A stretch of 64,000 nt of DNA. Origin: Phycisphaerae bacterium. Lineage in GTDB: Bacteria > Planctomycetota > Phycisphaerae > SM23-33. The translations under genes were made by a program, and so were the position numbers. Shown piece after piece: positions 29,422 to 36,644 of the stretch. The notes below the pieces were generated by a model. It made no database searches, was not told the origin of the DNA, and was given only the letters and a program-made list of their open reading frames with translations. The stretch lies in NCBI GenBank assembly GCA_011050235.1, contig DRGC01000079.1:1-64000 (forward strand). Reading direction: 5' to 3'. The first letter of the stretch is position 1. Each line of letters starts with the position of its first letter.

Positions 29422-30747
29422 ATGAGCGATGTTTCCGTCGAACAAGTGGCCCGCGCTGGTGTGGTGGGGGCCGGTGGGGCGGGCTTTCCCACCCACGTCA
29501 AGCTCCTCGCGTCGGCCGACACGGTGCTGATCAACGCCGCCGAGTGCGAACCCCTGCTGCACAAGGACAAGGAAGTTCTCAAGAACTTCATCGAGCCGGT
29601 CCTGGCCGGTCTGGGGGCGTCCATGCAGTTGGTCGGCGCTTCGCGCGGCATCATCGGCATCAAGGAGAAGTACGGCGACGTTATCGATCTGCTTCGGCCG
29701 AAGCTGTCGGCCGGCATGTCGATCGCGCCGCTGCGCGACGCCTACCCGGCCGGCGATGAGTTCATCCTCGTCTACGATATCCTGGGCCGAGTCGTGCCGC
29801 CCGGCGGCATCCCGCTGAATGTCAACGTGGTCGTCATGAACGTGGAGACGGCCATGAACATCGCCATCGCGCCGACGAGGCCCGTCACCGACAAATATCT
29901 CACCATCGCCGGCGCCGTCGCCAACCCGATCACGCTGTGCGTGCCGATCGGCGTGACGCTGGCCGACTGCGTTGCTGTCGCCGAGCCCACCGTCGGCGAC
30001 GCCAACTACATCGTCGGCGGCGTGATGATGGGCACGCTGGAAGATGACCACGACGCCCTTGTCGACAAGACCACCGGTGGCGTTATCGTCCTGCCGTCCG
30101 ACCACGTCGTCGTCCGCCGCCGCCGGCAGAACTGGCGGCAGATCGTCCGCATCGGCCGAAGCGCCTGCGATCAGTGCAGCTTCTGCACCGAGCTGTGCCC
30201 GCGCTGGCTGCTGGGGCATCCCATCGAGCCGCACCGGGCTATGCGGTCGCTGGAGTTCAACCTTGTCGGCGAGTCCAACGTCCGCGGCACGAGCTACTGC
30301 TGCGAGTGCAACCTCTGCAGCCTGTATTCTTGCCCGGAAGACCTGGATCCCAAGAACGTCTGCAGTCAGAACAAGCGCCGCCTCGCCGAATCGAAAAGCA
30401 CCTGGGCCGACCCGCCCTTTAATGCCAACCGTCCCGACCTGCACATGGCCAACCGCAAGGCGCCGATGAAACGTCTGATGAGCAAGCTCGGCCTGACGCA
30501 GTTCAACAACGTTGGCCCGCTGACAGATCGGCCGCTAGCGGCAGGGAAGGTGGGCATCAAGCTCAAACAGCACGTCGGCGTCCCGTGCGAGCCGGTCGTC
30601 TCGACCGGCCAGGCCGTCCGCGTCGGCGATGTCGTCGCCACGCCGCCCAGCGATAACGGCAAGGCCGCCCTGGGCGCGCCCGTGCACGCGTCGATCGATG
30701 GAACCGTCACCGCCGTCGCAGACGGTGTGGTCTGGATTGAAGGATAA
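29422..30747 (+). CDS. PduS-like flavin/[4Fe-4S] reductase (RnfC relative)
   Basis: 441 residues, the length of PduS. In propanediol microcompartments PduS is the cobalamin reductase, carrying FMN and two [4Fe-4S] clusters. Seen here: VVGAGGAGFPTHVKL near residue 14 and INAAECEPLLHKD near 37 (the RnfC-type FMN/NADH domain). An SLBB-like middle follows, then cluster motifs CDQCSFCTELCP near 250 and CCECNLCSLYSCP near 293. A barrel-sandwich C-terminus ends the protein. Its neighbour 6 nt downstream is a PduT-like shell protein, the natural partner of PduS. It could equally be a generic electron-transfer subunit for a glycyl-radical or other microcompartment. Confidence 0.88.
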   Translation: MSDVSVEQVARAGVVGAGGAGFPTHVKLLASADTVLINAAECEPLLHKDKEVLKNFIEPVLAGLGASMQLVGASRGIIGIKEKYGDVIDLLRPKLSAGMSIAPLRDAYPAGDEFILVYDILGRVVPPGGIPLNVNVVVMNVETAMNIAIAPTRPVTDKYLTIAGAVANPITLCVPIGVTLADCVAVAEPTVGDANYIVGGVMMGTLEDDHDALVDKTTGGVIVLPSDHVVVRRRRQNWRQIVRIGRSACDQCSFCTELCPRWLLGHPIEPHRAMRSLEFNLVGESNVRGTSYCCECNLCSLYSCPEDLDPKNVCSQNKRRLAESKSTWADPPFNANRPDLHMANRKAPMKRLMSKLGLTQFNNVGPLTDRPLAAGKVGIKLKQHVGVPCEPVVSTGQAVRVGDVVATPPSDNGKAALGAPVHASIDGTVTAVADGVVWIEG

Positions 30748-30753
30748 CGGAAC

Positions 30754-31314
30754 ATGGCTGAACCCAGAGCCATCGGAGCGATCGAACTATCGAGCATCTC
30801 GTTGGGCTACAAGGTCCAGGACGACATGCTCAAGGCCGCCTCCGTCGATCTGCTGATCGCGCGGACGATCTGCTCGGGCAAGTATTTTATCGTGATCGGC
30901 GGGTCCGTCAGCGACGTGACCAGTTCCATCGAGACCGCCCTGCGCGTCACCGACGACGCGATCATCGATCACGTCGTCATTCCCAACGTGCACGAGGACG
31001 TCTTCCCCGCGCTGGGCCAATCGGTCGTCGTCGATGACGACAACATCGGCGCGCTGGGCGTTGTCGAGACCTTCAGCGGCGTCAGCATCGTCGCCGCCGC
31101 CGATGCCGCCGCCAAGGCCGCCAAGGTCACGCTCTTTCGCATTCAGGTGGCGATGGCCCTGGGCGGCAAGGGGTACTGCCTGATGACGGGCGATATCTCC
31201 GACGTTCAAGCCGCCGTCGCCGCCGCCGCCGCCGTCGCTCGCGAGCGGGGCCTGCTTGTCGGCGAAGTCGTCATCCCCCGCCCAAGCGTCGAACTGCTGG
31301 CCGAATACCTCTAA
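30754..31314 (+). CDS. Tandem-BMC microcompartment shell protein (PduT-like BMC-T)
   Basis: 186 residues made of two BMC domains (about 8-90 and 100-182), each with the GxxAxDxxx-type helix and the (I/V)IP(N/R) end. Cys40 in TICSGKY matches the position of the Cys that binds a [4Fe-4S] cluster at the three-fold pore of PduT (Cys38 in the characterised protein). It would form trimers in a microcompartment shell and could conduct electrons across it. Directly follows the PduS-like gene. No hexameric BMC-H, pentameric BMC-P or enzyme genes are nearby. Confidence 0.88.
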   Translation: MAEPRAIGAIELSSISLGYKVQDDMLKAASVDLLIARTICSGKYFIVIGGSVSDVTSSIETALRVTDDAIIDHVVIPNVHEDVFPALGQSVVVDDDNIGALGVVETFSGVSIVAAADAAAKAAKVTLFRIQVAMALGGKGYCLMTGDISDVQAAVAAAAAVARERGLLVGEVVIPRPSVELLAEYL

Positions 31315-31556: not shown

Positions 31557-31615
31557 GGCCCCCCAGCGGGCCATTGCCGGGAAACGGACTTACGCAAGGC
31601 CGCTTAGCCTTGGCT

Positions 31616-31639
31616 GGGGCGATGTCTTTGCATCGCCCC
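31616..31639 (+). terminator. Perfect 9-bp hairpin
   Basis: GGGGCGATG-TCTTTG-CATCGCCCC; four T follow 5 nt later. It may end the transcript of the PduS/PduT-like pair, though it lies about 300 nt beyond the stop. An alternative role is a 5' structural element. Confidence 0.4.
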
Positions 31640-31746
31640 GGTCGATTTTCGTAGAATCGATGTGGAGGAATGCTGTCGACGGACGGTGCGGTCGTCGACG
31701 GCCCGCAGGCCCCTCGCCGCAGGGCCCGCACACAACGAGGTAGATG

Positions 31747-31843: not shown

Positions 31844-33940
31844 ATGCGTGATCGTGATCTTACGTCTGCGGATGTGGCCGAGTTCGCCAGCCCGCGCGAA
31901 TTGATGGAGGCCGAGTGGGCGCCGTGTCGCTATCACTGCCCAGTCCATGCCGATGTGCGGGGCTATATCGAGTTGGCCGCCCGCGGGCAGTTCGAGGCCG
32001 CCGCCAACCTCGTCCGCGACTGTCTGCCGTTCGCCTCGGTCTGCGGGCGGATTTGTCACCATCCCTGCGAGGCCAACTGCCGCCGCTGCGAGGTCGACCA
32101 GGCCGTCGCCGTCCGCGAGGTCAAACGCTTCGTCTGTGAACTCACCGGCGTCAGGGCGGCGGTTCACAAGGCGGATAAGCAGGACCTGGCCAAGGTCGCC
32201 ATCGTCGGGGCCGGGCCGGCCGGGATGGCCGCAGCGCTGGAGTTGGCCCGCATCGGCTATCGCCCGACCGTCTTCGAGAAATTCCCCGTCGCCGGCGGCA
32301 TCCCTGCGACGGCCATTCCCTCCTACCGCCTGCCGCGCGACGTGATCCGCCAGGACACCGATTGGATCTTCGCCCACGGCGTGGACTTCGTGCCCAACTG
32401 CGACATCGGCAAGGACAAGACCATCGCAGACCTCGAGGCCGAGGGGTTTGAAGCCGTGCTCATCGCCACCGGCCTGGCCGATAGCCGCATGCTGCCCCTG
32501 CCCGGGGCTGACCACAAACGCGTGCTGCCCGTGCTGACGTTTCTCACCGACGTGTCCTTCGACCGCACCCCTGACGTCGGGGCCAATGTGTTGGTCATCG
32601 GCGGCGGCAACGTGGCCATGGACGCCGCTCGAACGGCCCGGCGGCTGGGCGCGCAGGTCACGGCTATGTGCCTGGAAAACGAAGAGGAAATGCCCGCCTG
32701 GGACTGGGAGCGCGACGAGGCCGACGAAGAGGGCGTGACGTTCCTCTTCCGCCGCGGGCCCGTCGAAGTCCTGCTCGACGGCGACAAGATCGTCGGCATG
32801 AAAACGCGGAAGGTCACGCGCGTCTTCGACGGGGAGGGCAAGTTCAGCCCCGAATACGACGACAACGACCTGCAGAACATCCCCTGCGATACCGTCATCA
32901 TGGCTATCGGGCAGACGGCGAATCTGAATTTCATCGAAGGCAGCGACCTGACGGCCGACGACCGCGGGCGGCTGACCTATGATTCGGCGACGCATCAAAC
33001 GTCCTTGCCGGAGGTGTTCGCCTGCGGCGAAATCGTCACCGCGCCCGGATCGGCCGTCGAGGCCTGTGCATCGGGCCAGCGGGCGGCCAAGGCCATCGAC
33101 CTGTATCTGTCAGGTCGGACGATCCAGATCGACGACGCGCTGCCGCCGACCATCGACAAGATTGCGCCCGCCACGGCGGAGAAGGTCCTGAAGGTCGAGC
33201 GATACGGCGTTGATACCGAGCAGCCTGAGATGCGCATCACCACGTTCGACGAGATCGATCACAATTACGATCCCGAAATCGCCGTCCGCGAGGCGCGGCG
33301 CTGCATGAGTTGCGGCGGTGGGGCCGAGGTGCTGGTCGACAAGTGTGCGGCCTGCCTGACGTGCCTGCGGGTGTGCCCGTTCGATATTCCGGTCGTCACC
33401 GACGTGGCCCGGATCGAGTCGTCGCTGTGTCAGGCCTGCGGCATGTGCATCGCCGATTGCCCGGCCAACGCGATCATCGCCCGAAGTTGGTCGCCCGAAG
33501 AGGATCTGCGGCAGGTCGCCGCCAAGATCAATGCTCTAACAGGCGAGCGCAAGATCGTCGCCTACGTCTGCGGGCATCACTCGCCCGCGACGGCTTGGGG
33601 CGGCACGCTGGAAGATACGATCCCCGGTGTCGTCGAGGAGTATCTGCCCAGTATGTCCCGTCTGTCGGCGGCCGAGATCCTTCACACGCTGGAGGCCGGC
33701 GCCACCGGCGTGATCGTCGTGGCCTGTAACGAAGGCGCCGACCGCTACCCGACGGCCCCGCTGCGGGCGGCCAAACGCGTCGAGCAGGTCCGGGAGCTTC
33801 TGGACGAGATTGGTCTGGGTGCCGAACGTGTGCAATACGTGGCGGTCGCCGATCGTGGGCGGGCGGCGACGCGGGAGGCGATGGCCGAGGCTGCCGACCG
33901 TATCGAAGGCAAGGTCCAGGAATCAGTGGAAAGCGAATAG
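31844..33940 (+). CDS. GltD-like flavoprotein fused to ferredoxin and MvhD-like domains
   Basis: 698 residues in three parts. (1) About 25-100: Cys-rich helical Fe-S domain of the GltD/dihydropyrimidine dehydrogenase type (CRYHCPVH, CGRICHHPCEANCRRC). About 117-460: FAD and NAD(P) Rossmann domains (VGAGPAG near 121, VIGGGNVAMDAART near 250, and MAIGQT). (2) About 485-545: two ferredoxin motifs (CAACLTCLRVCP, CQACGMCIADCP). (3) About 565-665: a domain resembling MvhD, the [2Fe-2S] electron-transfer subunit of heterodisulfide reductase/hydrogenase complexes. Here only two of the expected cysteines are evident. Encoded just before metV-metF, so I infer it feeds electrons from NAD(P)H, and perhaps ferredoxin, to methylene-THF reductase. 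GGAG precedes the ATG by 7 nt. Confidence 0.85.
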   Translation: MRDRDLTSADVAEFASPRELMEAEWAPCRYHCPVHADVRGYIELAARGQFEAAANLVRDCLPFASVCGRICHHPCEANCRRCEVDQAVAVREVKRFVCELTGVRAAVHKADKQDLAKVAIVGAGPAGMAAALELARIGYRPTVFEKFPVAGGIPATAIPSYRLPRDVIRQDTDWIFAHGVDFVPNCDIGKDKTIADLEAEGFEAVLIATGLADSRMLPLPGADHKRVLPVLTFLTDVSFDRTPDVGANVLVIGGGNVAMDAARTARRLGAQVTAMCLENEEEMPAWDWERDEADEEGVTFLFRRGPVEVLLDGDKIVGMKTRKVTRVFDGEGKFSPEYDDNDLQNIPCDTVIMAIGQTANLNFIEGSDLTADDRGRLTYDSATHQTSLPEVFACGEIVTAPGSAVEACASGQRAAKAIDLYLSGRTIQIDDALPPTIDKIAPATAEKVLKVERYGVDTEQPEMRITTFDEIDHNYDPEIAVREARRCMSCGGGAEVLVDKCAACLTCLRVCPFDIPVVTDVARIESSLCQACGMCIADCPANAIIARSWSPEEDLRQVAAKINALTGERKIVAYVCGHHSPATAWGGTLEDTIPGVVEEYLPSMSRLSAAEILHTLEAGATGVIVVACNEGADRYPTAPLRAAKRVEQVRELLDEIGLGAERVQYVAVADRGRAATREAMAEAADRIEGKVQESVESE

Positions 33941-33989
33941 GCCGTGACGGGGCGCCGCGGCGCTCAGGAATCCGGCAGGAGATAGGACG

Positions 33990-34676
33990 ATGATTGTTGC
34001 CGAACGCAAACCGATGGATGAGATCTTCCAGATGCTCGCCGGCTGCAAGAAGGTGCTCGTGCTGGGCTGCGGCGGGTGCGTGACCGTCTGCCTGACCGGC
34101 GGCGAGCGCCAGGCCGAGATGCTGGCCAGCCAGTTGAACCTGGCCGCCAAGGCCAAGGGCGAGGCGATGCAGGTGGACTTCGACTCGATCACCCGCCAGT
34201 GCGAGAAGGAGTTCTTCGATAACCTTTCGGAGGCCCCGGCCGACTACGACGCGGTGCTCTCGATCGCCTGCGGAGCGGGCGTGGGATACATGTCCGAGCA
34301 GTTCCCGAAGGTGACGGTCCTGCCGGGCATGAACACCACGCATCTGGCCGCCAACGTCGCCCTGGGCATCTGGGAAGAATACTGCCGCGGCTGCGGCGAC
34401 TGCATGCTGGCCTGGACCGGCGGCGTCTGCCCGATCGCCAAGTGCTCCAAGAGCCTCGTCAACGGCACGTGCGGCGGCACGGACAAGGGCAAATGTGAAG
34501 TCAACCCGGAGATGAACTGCGGGTGGCTGATGATCTACGAGCGGCTGAAAGAATTGGACCGGCTGGACGAATACCGCACGATGAGGCCGTTGCGCGACCA
34601 TCGGACCGATCGCGGCAACGGCGTGCGACGGCTCGTGCTGGCTGAAATGACTGAAGAGGAGGCCGGCGATGAGTAA
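33990..34676 (+). CDS. metV: MetV-type zinc/Fe-S subunit of methylene-THF reductase
   Basis: 228 residues, recognisable as the free-standing C-terminal MTHFR domain called MetV in acetogens. N-terminal VLVLGCGGCVTVC near residue 23, CGAGVGYMSEQFP near 90, and a Cys-rich C-terminus: CRGCGDCMLAWTGGVCPIAKC near 131-151, then CGGTDKGKCEV. In Moorella-type systems MetV links MetF to an electron-transfer partner. GGAG lies upstream of ATG 33990. Its stop overlaps the metF start by 8 nt. Confidence 0.88.
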   Translation: MIVAERKPMDEIFQMLAGCKKVLVLGCGGCVTVCLTGGERQAEMLASQLNLAAKAKGEAMQVDFDSITRQCEKEFFDNLSEAPADYDAVLSIACGAGVGYMSEQFPKVTVLPGMNTTHLAANVALGIWEEYCRGCGDCMLAWTGGVCPIAKCSKSLVNGTCGGTDKGKCEVNPEMNCGWLMIYERLKELDRLDEYRTMRPLRDHRTDRGNGVRRLVLAEMTEEEAGDE

Positions 34677-35583
34677 CGAGCCTGTCAGCAATCTGCAGCG
34701 TGATCTGGACTCCGGCGAGTTTGTCGTCACCGCCGAGATCGGCCCGCCCAAGGGCACGAACATCGCCCCGGTCATCCACGAAGCCGAGGAGTTTCTCAAG
34801 GGCAAGGTCTCAGCGGTCAACGTCACCGACATTCAGACGGCCGTTATGCGCGGGTCCAGCATGGTCGGGGCGAAGCTGCTGTTCGATGCCGGCATCGAGC
34901 CGGTCCTGCAGATGGTCACGCGCGACCGCAACCGCCTGGCCCTGCAGAGCGATCTGCTGGCGGCCCATATTTTCGGCATCCGCAATGTGCTGTGTTTGAC
35001 CGGCGACCACGTGACGATGGGCGACCACCCCCAGGCCATGCCCGTCTACGATCTGGATTCGGTCTCGCTGCTGGATGCCATGTGCAAGCTGGAGGCCGGC
35101 ACGGACCTCGGCGCTGACATGAAGGGCAAGGCCAACGAACTGGACGGCGTGCCGACGTTCTTCAAGGGCTGCTGCGTCACGCCCTGTGCCGATGAGGTCG
35201 ACCCGCAGGTTATCAAGCTGGAAAAGAAAGTCGAAGCCGGCGCCCAGTTCGTCCAGACGCAGGCCGTCTATGAGCCCAAAGTGTTCGAGACCTTCATGAA
35301 GAAGGTCGAGCACATCAAGGTGCCGATCCTGGTCGGCATCGTGATGCTCAAGACTGCCGGCATGGCCAAGTACATGAACCGCGGCGTTCCCGGCGTGGTT
35401 GTCCCCGATGCCATCATCCAGCGGATGACCGATTGCGAGAAGCCCGACCGCGAGAAAGTGTCCATCGAGATCTGCGGCGAGCTGGTCTCGACCATGAAGG
35501 ATATGTGCCAGGGCGCCCACCTGATGACGCTCGGCTGGGACCACTGCGTCCCCGGCATCATCCAAGCCGCCGGCCTGGCGTAA
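34669..35583 (+). CDS. metF: 5,10-methylenetetrahydrofolate reductase (MetF)
   Basis: 304-residue TIM-barrel flavoprotein that reduces methylene-THF to methyl-THF. EIGPPKGTN near residue 24, VNVTDIQTAVMRGSS near 46, LCLTGDHVTMGDHP near 108, and GAQFVQTQAVYE near 192. GGAGG sits 5 nt before ATG 34669, inside the end of metV. The arrangement of fusion, metV and metF resembles the MetFV complexes of anaerobes rather than the NADH-dependent MetF of aerobes. A 13-bp hairpin follows the stop. Confidence 0.93.
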   Translation: MSNEPVSNLQRDLDSGEFVVTAEIGPPKGTNIAPVIHEAEEFLKGKVSAVNVTDIQTAVMRGSSMVGAKLLFDAGIEPVLQMVTRDRNRLALQSDLLAAHIFGIRNVLCLTGDHVTMGDHPQAMPVYDLDSVSLLDAMCKLEAGTDLGADMKGKANELDGVPTFFKGCCVTPCADEVDPQVIKLEKKVEAGAQFVQTQAVYEPKVFETFMKKVEHIKVPILVGIVMLKTAGMAKYMNRGVPGVVVPDAIIQRMTDCEKPDREKVSIEICGELVSTMKDMCQGAHLMTLGWDHCVPGIIQAAGLA

Positions 35584-35614
35584 GGCTGACAGCCCCCGAT
35601 TTGGTGAAAACAAG

Positions 35615-35644
35615 AGCGCGGCGAGACGGATGTCTCGCCGCGCT
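35615..35644 (+). terminator. 13-bp perfect hairpin between convergent metF and folD
   Basis: AGCGCGGCGAGAC-GGAT-GTCTCGCCGCGCT, followed by TCTCTATT on this strand and, on the other, by TCTTGTTTTC. Probably a two-way terminator. A sister hairpin at 50214-50243 differs by one compensatory A-T to G-C pair. Confidence 0.7.
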
Positions 35645-35666
35645 TCTCTATTAGACTGACGTCGAG

Positions 35667-36644
35667 CTACGCCATCGCTTTGGCGCAGGCGATGGTGTTC
35701 TTCAGGAGCATGGCGACCGTCACCGGGCCGACGCCGCCGGGGACGGGGGTGATGGCGGCGGCCTTTTCCTTGGCCGCCTCGAAGTCCACGTCGCCGACGG
35801 TCTTCATGGCGTTCTTGCCCTTGTCGTTCTTGAGTGGGGCGCCGCCAGAGTCGAAGCCCTTGGGGATGCGGTTGATGGCCACGTCGATCACGATGGCGCC
35901 TTCTTTGACCATCTCCCCGGTGATCAGCGGCGTCAGGTCCGGCAGGGAGACATCTTCGCCGGCCTTTTTCTTGCGGTTGTAGCCGCGCCATTTGGCCTGG
36001 CTGACGCCGGCGGCTACGAAAAGAATGTCCGCGTTCTTCGTGTGGGAGGCCAGGTCCTTGGTGGCGATGTGGCAGACTGTGACCGTGGGCGATTCCGTCA
36101 GCGACTGCAGCAGCATCGCGGCGATGGGCTTGCCGACGATCTCACTGTGGCCGACCACGACCGCTTCCTTGCCGGCCAGGTTGCTTTCGGTCTGCTTGAG
36201 CAGTTCGACCGCCGCGGCCGCCGTGCACGCCGAGACGATCCCGCCGCCGTAAAACAATTGCCCCATGTTCTCGGGGTGCATGCCCTCGACATCCTTGGCC
36301 GGTGAGATGGCCACCTGGACCTGGCGGGCGTCGATCTGAGAGGGCAGCGGCATCTGGAGGATCAGCCCGGTGACCTTCGGGTCATTATTGAGTTCATCGA
36401 TCTTCGCCAGCAAGTCGTTCTGCGAGATGCCCTCGTCCAGCTCGAGCAGTTCGTATTCCAGCCCGGCGGCCTCGCAGTTCTTCCGCTGCATGTTGGTGTA
36501 GATCTTGCTGGCGGGGTTCTCGCCAACCTGCACCGCCACCAGATGCGGCGGTCGCCCGGCGGCCGTCAATTCGGTGGCGTCGGCGATGATCTGGTCGGTG
36601 AGGGTCTTCGCTACAGCTTCTCCGTCAATAATCTTGGCAGCCAT
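35667..36644 (-). CDS. folD: Methylene-THF dehydrogenase/methenyl-THF cyclohydrolase
   Basis: Interconverts formyl-, methenyl- and methylene-THF. 325 residues, about 40 more than typical FolD because of a Lys-rich insertion in the C-terminal half (about 235-285). Seen: SKIYTNMQRKNCEAAG with the catalytic Tyr and Lys near residues 49-56, LILQMPLPSQID near 93, VVVGHSEIVGKP near 172, and TPVPGGVGPVTVAMLL near the end. GGAG precedes the ATG by 6 nt. With metF and metV it covers the methylene-to-methyl part of the C1 pathway. Four nt separate it from the next gene, which is upstream in the same operon. Confidence 0.95.
   Translation of the reverse strand: MAAKIIDGEAVAKTLTDQIIADATELTAAGRPPHLVAVQVGENPASKIYTNMQRKNCEAAGLEYELLELDEGISQNDLLAKIDELNNDPKVTGLILQMPLPSQIDARQVQVAISPAKDVEGMHPENMGQLFYGGGIVSACTAAAAVELLKQTESNLAGKEAVVVGHSEIVGKPIAAMLLQSLTESPTVTVCHIATKDLASHTKNADILFVAAGVSQAKWRGYNRKKKAGEDVSLPDLTPLITGEMVKEGAIVIDVAINRIPKGFDSGGAPLKNDKGKNAMKTVGDVDFEAAKEKAAAITPVPGGVGPVTVAMLLKNTIACAKAMA

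Follow-up and report, generated by a model that had tools for sequence, protein, structure and literature searches.

Which microcompartment, if any, is served by a PduS-PduT gene pair whose surroundings encode no other part of a shell? We followed up this question for a stretch of 64,000 nucleotides (the window) of contig DRGC01000079.1 from a Phycisphaerae bacterium (assembly GCA_011050235.1). PduS and PduT have been found in PDU and GRM loci as well as at some others, and satellite loci have also been described (PMC4207490, PMC8217296). An earlier note, made from the sequence alone, had called the pair an orphan without a microcompartment locus and had offered two readings: a satellite serving a shell encoded elsewhere, or a redox device acting outside a microcompartment. 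For the coordinates of all features see Table 1.

Table 1. Features of the PduS-PduT region in window coordinates.
Feature	Positions	Strand	Remarks
PduS-type flavo-iron-sulphur NADH oxidoreductase	29422..30747	+	441 aa, ATG at 29422
Glycine-rich FMN/NADH motif GVVGAGGAGFPTHVK	29458..29502	+	PduS residues 13-27; near-invariant in 12 PduS
First four-cysteine motif, C249-x2-C252-x2-C255-x3-C259	30166..30198	+	all four Cys invariant in 12 PduS
Second four-cysteine motif, C293/C296/C299/C304-P	30298..30333	+	invariant in 12 PduS
C-terminal RnfC_N barrel-sandwich domain	30544..30723	+	PduS residues 375-434
PduT-type tandem BMC-T shell protein	30754..31314	+	186 aa, two PF00936 domains; PDB 3pac/3n79
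Cys40 codon, predicted [4Fe-4S] ligand at threefold pore	30871..30873	+	alignment with PduT cluster cysteine
Terminator-like intrinsic hairpin 3' of PduT	31610..31645	+	strong; 16 pairs, then TTTTCG

The first gene product comprises a Complex1_51K domain (PF01512, 136 bits), a Fer4_17 domain (PF13534, 48 bits) and a C-terminal RnfC_N domain (PF13375, 45 bits). These are all three domains expected of PduS, in the order given for it in PMC6325248; an SLBB domain (PF10531) was not found at E 0.001. An alignment of 12 sequences revealed the two four-cysteine cluster motifs of PduS, and orthologues across the family share 65-74% identity. Identification as RnfC or RnfC2 was rejected: the protein scores 200 bits against an rnfC cut-off of 246 bits, and its RnfC_N part is C-terminal, unlike that of RnfC, which is N-terminal in the alignments.

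PduT follows after a spacer of 6 nt. Pfam searches and alignment with PDB entries confirmed the arrangement read from the sequence, including Cys40 at the cluster position. The best PDB matches are 3pac (1.3e-42), 3n79 and 3nwg, all PduT or shell proteins, and the alignment with the solved PduT structures 3pac and 3n79 spans nearly the entire length. The score of 122 bits is below the NCBIfam TIGR02526 equivalog cut-off of 250 bits; judged by its sequence, the protein appears to be a related type working like PduT and not an equivalog of the enterobacterial PduT. Cys40 occupies the column of the PduT cluster cysteine within a C-P/S/A-G-K-Y/F context (TICPGKF in 3pac, TICSGKYF in the window protein). 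It is invariant in 14 aligned orthologues, two of which share only 42-44% identity, and present in all matches of the phylum above 50% identity. Its absence from close relatives would have spoken against the earlier reading; all of them carry it. In most planctomycete BMC-T proteins with less than 48% identity, which are parts of other types of organelle, this position is taken by Ser, Thr, Gln or His (L229-L248). Cysteine conservation in our set of 80 loci was left out as evidence, since the scan pattern contained that cysteine and the set is thus biased; we rely on the alignment of 14 orthologues and the phylum-wide comparison of BMC-T proteins by identity.

The G+C content of PduS (0.656) and PduT (0.647) is close to that of the window (0.647) and the gene order HU-PduS-PduT recurs in relatives, so that a binning artefact is unlikely. 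A profile search found no further PF00936 or PF03319 gene on the full contig of 105,965 bp, which extends the observation that other shell genes are missing nearby. The hairpin behind PduT suggests that PduS and PduT probably form a separate transcription unit. Downstream, at 31844-36644, lie genes for an FAD/4Fe-4S oxidoreductase that ends in an FlpD domain, MetV (PF12225) and MetF on the strand of PduT, together with FolD on the opposite strand; they represent a methylene-THF reductase of the MetVF type and an electron-input protein belonging to it. In some acetogens RnfC2 serves as the electron-input module of methylene-THF reductase, and PduS-PduT might play this part outside any shell. 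The downstream position on the same strand is compatible with this idea, and the FAD/FlpD and MetF genes also stand behind PduT in one further genome (G012), the only other one seen to keep the link. The link is absent from most relatives, however, whereas BMC genes co-occur in all of them. The two units are set apart by a strong terminator-like hairpin and a promoter-like site, it is hard to see what a BMC-T shell protein would do in such a complex, and the RnfC_N domain is placed as in PduS and not as in RnfC. We therefore treat FAD/FlpD-MetV-MetF-FolD as a unit of its own and reject the link as the main function; even as an explanation of the pair it is highly improbable.

A search of the whole genome for PF00936 and PF03319 yielded, besides the PduT of the window, six genes, three for BMC-H and three for BMC-P, which all lie on two other contigs, C30 and C3. 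Their gene order is DeoR, PduL, BMC-H, BMC-H, AckA, BMC-H, BMC-P, AldDH on C30 and BMC-P, RpiB-like, BMC-P, class II aldolase on C3. C30 ends inside the AldDH gene and C3 starts just before the BMC-P gene that follows AldDH in relatives; most likely, therefore, both belong to a single locus. With class II aldolase, DeoR, AckA, AldDH, PduL, BMC-H and BMC-P it has the full set of genes that marks a PVM-type locus, and the pair in the window is accordingly no orphan. Neither PduS nor PduT is encoded at the C30/C3 locus; a locus with a pair of its own would have spoken against the earlier reading. A lactate/malate dehydrogenase gene is missing from the locus, and the whole genome gave no match at all, for which reason we call the locus a PVM variant. 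Behind the PVM aldolase we observed a gene for a NACHT-type-NTPase-like protein of 1014 residues (L010:2395-5439). Its third-position G+C of 0.58 is below that of its neighbours; it occupies the site where other loci carry the dehydrogenase gene and may be an insertion.

There is no glycyl radical enzyme at C30/C3 or around PduS-PduT, and no B12 enzyme at the PVM locus. Assignment to GRM5 was discarded, as a glycyl radical propanediol dehydratase is found in neither place. These gaps bear on the possibility that the pair works in a compartment but draws electrons into it, to reduce cobalamin or to activate a glycyl radical enzyme. Such roles have been proposed for PDU and GRM organelles, PduS of the PDU system being a corrin reductase and an activase role having been suggested for GRM (PMC6325248). 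The window genome does contain nine PFL-like glycyl-radical-enzyme matches (contigs C2, C17, C19, C51 and C55). Six of the nine are located on two contigs, none is on a BMC-bearing contig, and many relatives have none. B12 reduction is at odds with a PVM locus that encodes no B12 enzyme. An activating role for glycyl radical enzymes cannot be general, because 9/16 of the PduS/PduT-positive genomes tested are without any PFL-like enzyme, including the closed genome G182 and four others at 97-99% completeness (G305, G208, G226 and G023). These genomes refute an inward electron role as the general one, and for the window pair we regard it as very unlikely.

Within the order, a PduT match was found in 16/38 genomes, and all 16 also encode BMC-P. 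The two genomes of the order with BMC-P but without PduT are bins of 73% and 76% completeness. The corresponding phylum-wide count (BMC-P in 55 of 56 PduT genomes) is inflated, since matches below about 48% identity are mostly cysteine-free BMC-T proteins of other organelle types; we therefore used the order-level count and matches above 50% identity. In three genomes (G008, G028 and G030) PduS-PduT immediately precedes DeoR-PduL-BMC-H, with all genes reading in one direction. The same layout occurs in two MAGs of the Phycisphaerae (L171, L173), and L141 and L143 show it interrupted by a gap. In G182, a closed genome on a single contig, the main locus maps to 1.32 Mb and PduS-PduT to 3.35 Mb. 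A distance of about 2 Mb on one contig means that satellite placement is real and not an effect of assembly. The second locus in the genome, the co-occurrence and the linkage in relatives thus support the first of the two readings offered earlier, a satellite for a shell encoded elsewhere; a redox device outside a microcompartment found no support. The pair is contiguous and has an insufficient shell complement in a genome with a second BMC locus, as is characteristic of satellite BMC loci. PMC4207490, taken strictly, would class it as "satellite-like", since the BMC-related PduS adjoins. Membership of PduS-PduT in the PVM organelle is well supported.

The two genes can also part from each other. 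Where PduT stands apart from PduS, PduS is found elsewhere in 17/18 genomes (Planctomycetaceae and rumen Thermoguttaceae MAGs), and loss of PduS as an explanation of PduT-only loci was rejected on this ground. Such separation was seen in gut-associated and other Planctomycetota (L149, L150, L153, L156, L162, L175 and L181-L189). Upstream of PduS and of the DeoR operon in one genus we noticed the direct repeats TTCTTTCAG and TTCTGTCAT, approximately 21-22 nt apart (L116:3143-3200, L118, L009 upstream of DeoR). This motif, chosen by eye and weak as evidence, is a possible DeoR operator. In the window genome it occurs as a single copy before DeoR and is absent before PduS; this gives no sign of co-regulation of the pair with the main operon and counts against our explanation. 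Divergent EtfB and EtfA genes adjoin PduS in L115, L116 and L117 (G027-G029). In L115 they are followed by a glycolate/lactate-type FAD-linked oxidase, possibly forming a lactate-oxidising complex beside the electron port of the organelle. These genes, found beside the pair in one genus, offer a lead to the electron acceptor outside.

The earlier note had further stated that PVM microcompartments are not known to include PduS or PduT. This agrees with the available parts of PMC4207490 and PMC8217296, which do not describe these proteins in PVM organelles, while supplements or the primary PVM paper may mention them; many planctomycetes nevertheless have both genes, some of them within the locus. 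In the classical PVM locus, the proposed NAD+ regenerator is a lactate/malate dehydrogenase encoded there (PMC4207490). In the PVM loci of genomes without PduS/PduT, an LDH-fold gene (PF00056/PF02866) lies directly behind the aldolase. At the genome level a PVM-type LDH is present in 30/31 such genomes, off-locus in three of one genus. It is present in only 2/34 PduT-positive PVM genomes, counting those with enough sequence behind the aldolase; those of the others that were searched genome-wide have only remote MDH-like matches at 32-38% identity or none. Fisher's test of 30/31 versus 2/34 gives 5e-15, uncorrected for kinship, which inflates the significance. On the AldDH tree, 4-5 independent pairs differ in PduS/PduT. 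LDH differs in the opposite sense in 2-3 of them and never in the same sense (sign test, p 0.25). G338 is nested in an LDH-bearing clade and its locus otherwise matches that of the clade; here the aldolase adjoins the 405-aa-type gene and the intervening LDH is cleanly gone. Proteins of this kind (405-459 aa) are encoded next after the aldolase in either redox variant of the PVM locus (L132:4437-5654, L134:4492-5721, L123:14010-15389), and that of L132 has no Pfam match. Exceptions are G351 (Aquisphaera insulae) and G355 with both systems and G197 with neither. PduS/PduT is thus almost exclusive with the PVM dehydrogenase, an exclusivity that rests on 4-5 independent switches. The available parts of the literature searched do not describe this distribution; supplements or the primary PVM paper may mention it.

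So few switches, together with the two genomes that have both systems, would also suit a minor shell tile (PduT) accompanied by a relic (PduS), with the correlation to LDH loss reflecting shared ancestry alone. None of the eight cluster cysteines of PduS varies, however, and neither does Cys40 of PduT, in whose place more distant planctomycete BMC-T proteins carry Ser, Thr, Gln or His; PduS is also retained even when unlinked from PduT. A tile with a relic is therefore rather improbable.

Based on these results we consider it likely, if far from certain, that PduS-PduT is a satellite electron port of the C30/C3 PVM-type organelle and replaces the internal lactate/malate-type dehydrogenase. With B12 reduction and radical-enzyme activation set aside, electron export for NAD+ regeneration remains. 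By analogy with characterised PduS/PduT, the following mechanism can be proposed, in which we infer the [4Fe-4S] cluster, the binding of PduS to PduT, the way the electrons run and the acceptor that takes them up outside. The organelle would process fucose/rhamnose-derived lactaldehyde, with PduS and PduT made from genes outside its locus. PduT would enter the PVM shell and hold a [4Fe-4S] cluster at its threefold pore, and PduS would dock onto its inner face. NADH produced by the AldDH of the lumen, which would need re-oxidation inside, would be oxidised by PduS, and the electrons would pass via its FMN and clusters to PduT and on to a cytosolic acceptor. NAD+ would thereby be regenerated inside without spending part of the aldehyde, which is how the pair could stand in for the dehydrogenase of the classical PVM. 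The opposite drive, in which PduS-PduT would feed electrons into the lumen or reduce a substrate there with NADH, e.g. lactaldehyde to propanediol as a substitute for an alcohol dehydrogenase, appears unlikely. An alcohol-forming role of PduS has been suggested for other loci without alcohol dehydrogenase (PMC4207490), and the pair does occur where LDH is missing; PduS has no substrate-reducing domain, however, and in characterised PduS the oxidation of NADH leads to reduction of the protein's own FMN and cluster (PMC6325248).

PVM-type organelles may come in two redox designs that can replace each other: in the closed design an internal lactate/malate dehydrogenase recycles NAD+, while the open one lets electrons out by way of PduS/PduT, whose genes may lie off-locus. 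Several switches between the two would have taken place within the Planctomycetota. We advance this generalisation tentatively, as a serious possibility that falls somewhat short of an even chance. In PDU and GRM organelles it is hard to tell whether PduS/PduT moves electrons across the shell, since B12 reduction or radical-enzyme activation confounds the matter and the pair can also adjoin an alcohol dehydrogenase there; the PVM variant has none of these confounders. Natural pairs of organelles differing in their NAD+ recycling device would allow a direct test of electron export. Furthermore, counts of parts taken from the main locus alone overlook a redox module.

The comparison with known systems places the pair as follows. 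With PduS/PduT of the PDU system (Citrobacter/Salmonella) it shares the order Complex1_51K-Fer4_17-RnfC_N, the two four-cysteine motifs and a tandem BMC-T with the cluster cysteine. In the PDU system, PduS is an NADH-oxidising protein with FMN and two clusters that binds PduT (PMC6325248), and a PduT-like BMC-T has been proposed as a redox carrier in Listeria EUT organelles (PMC8547011). In contrast to PDU, the locus of the window genome has no B12-dependent diol dehydratase or PduO, the pair serves a PVM-type organelle, and its PduT stays under the NCBIfam PduT cut-off. GRM5, the fucose/rhamnose glycyl-radical compartment (PMC6325248), likewise combines a class II aldolase with PduS and PduT, but here the locus has no glycyl radical enzyme or alcohol dehydrogenase, and glycyl radical enzymes are absent from the 9/16 genomes mentioned above. 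Like the satellite BMC loci of PMC4207490 and PMC8217296, the pair supplies too few shell proteins for a compartment, the main locus lying in another part of the genome, but it contributes a redox enzyme and a cluster-bearing BMC-T instead of pore-tuning tiles or an EUT module. The closest relative of the main locus is the PVM microcompartment of the Planctopirus limnophila type (PMC4207490), with which it shares DeoR, PduL, AckA, AldDH, class II aldolase and the BMC-P triplet. It differs in having no lactate/malate dehydrogenase behind the aldolase, in its three BMC-H genes and in the PduS/PduT pair.
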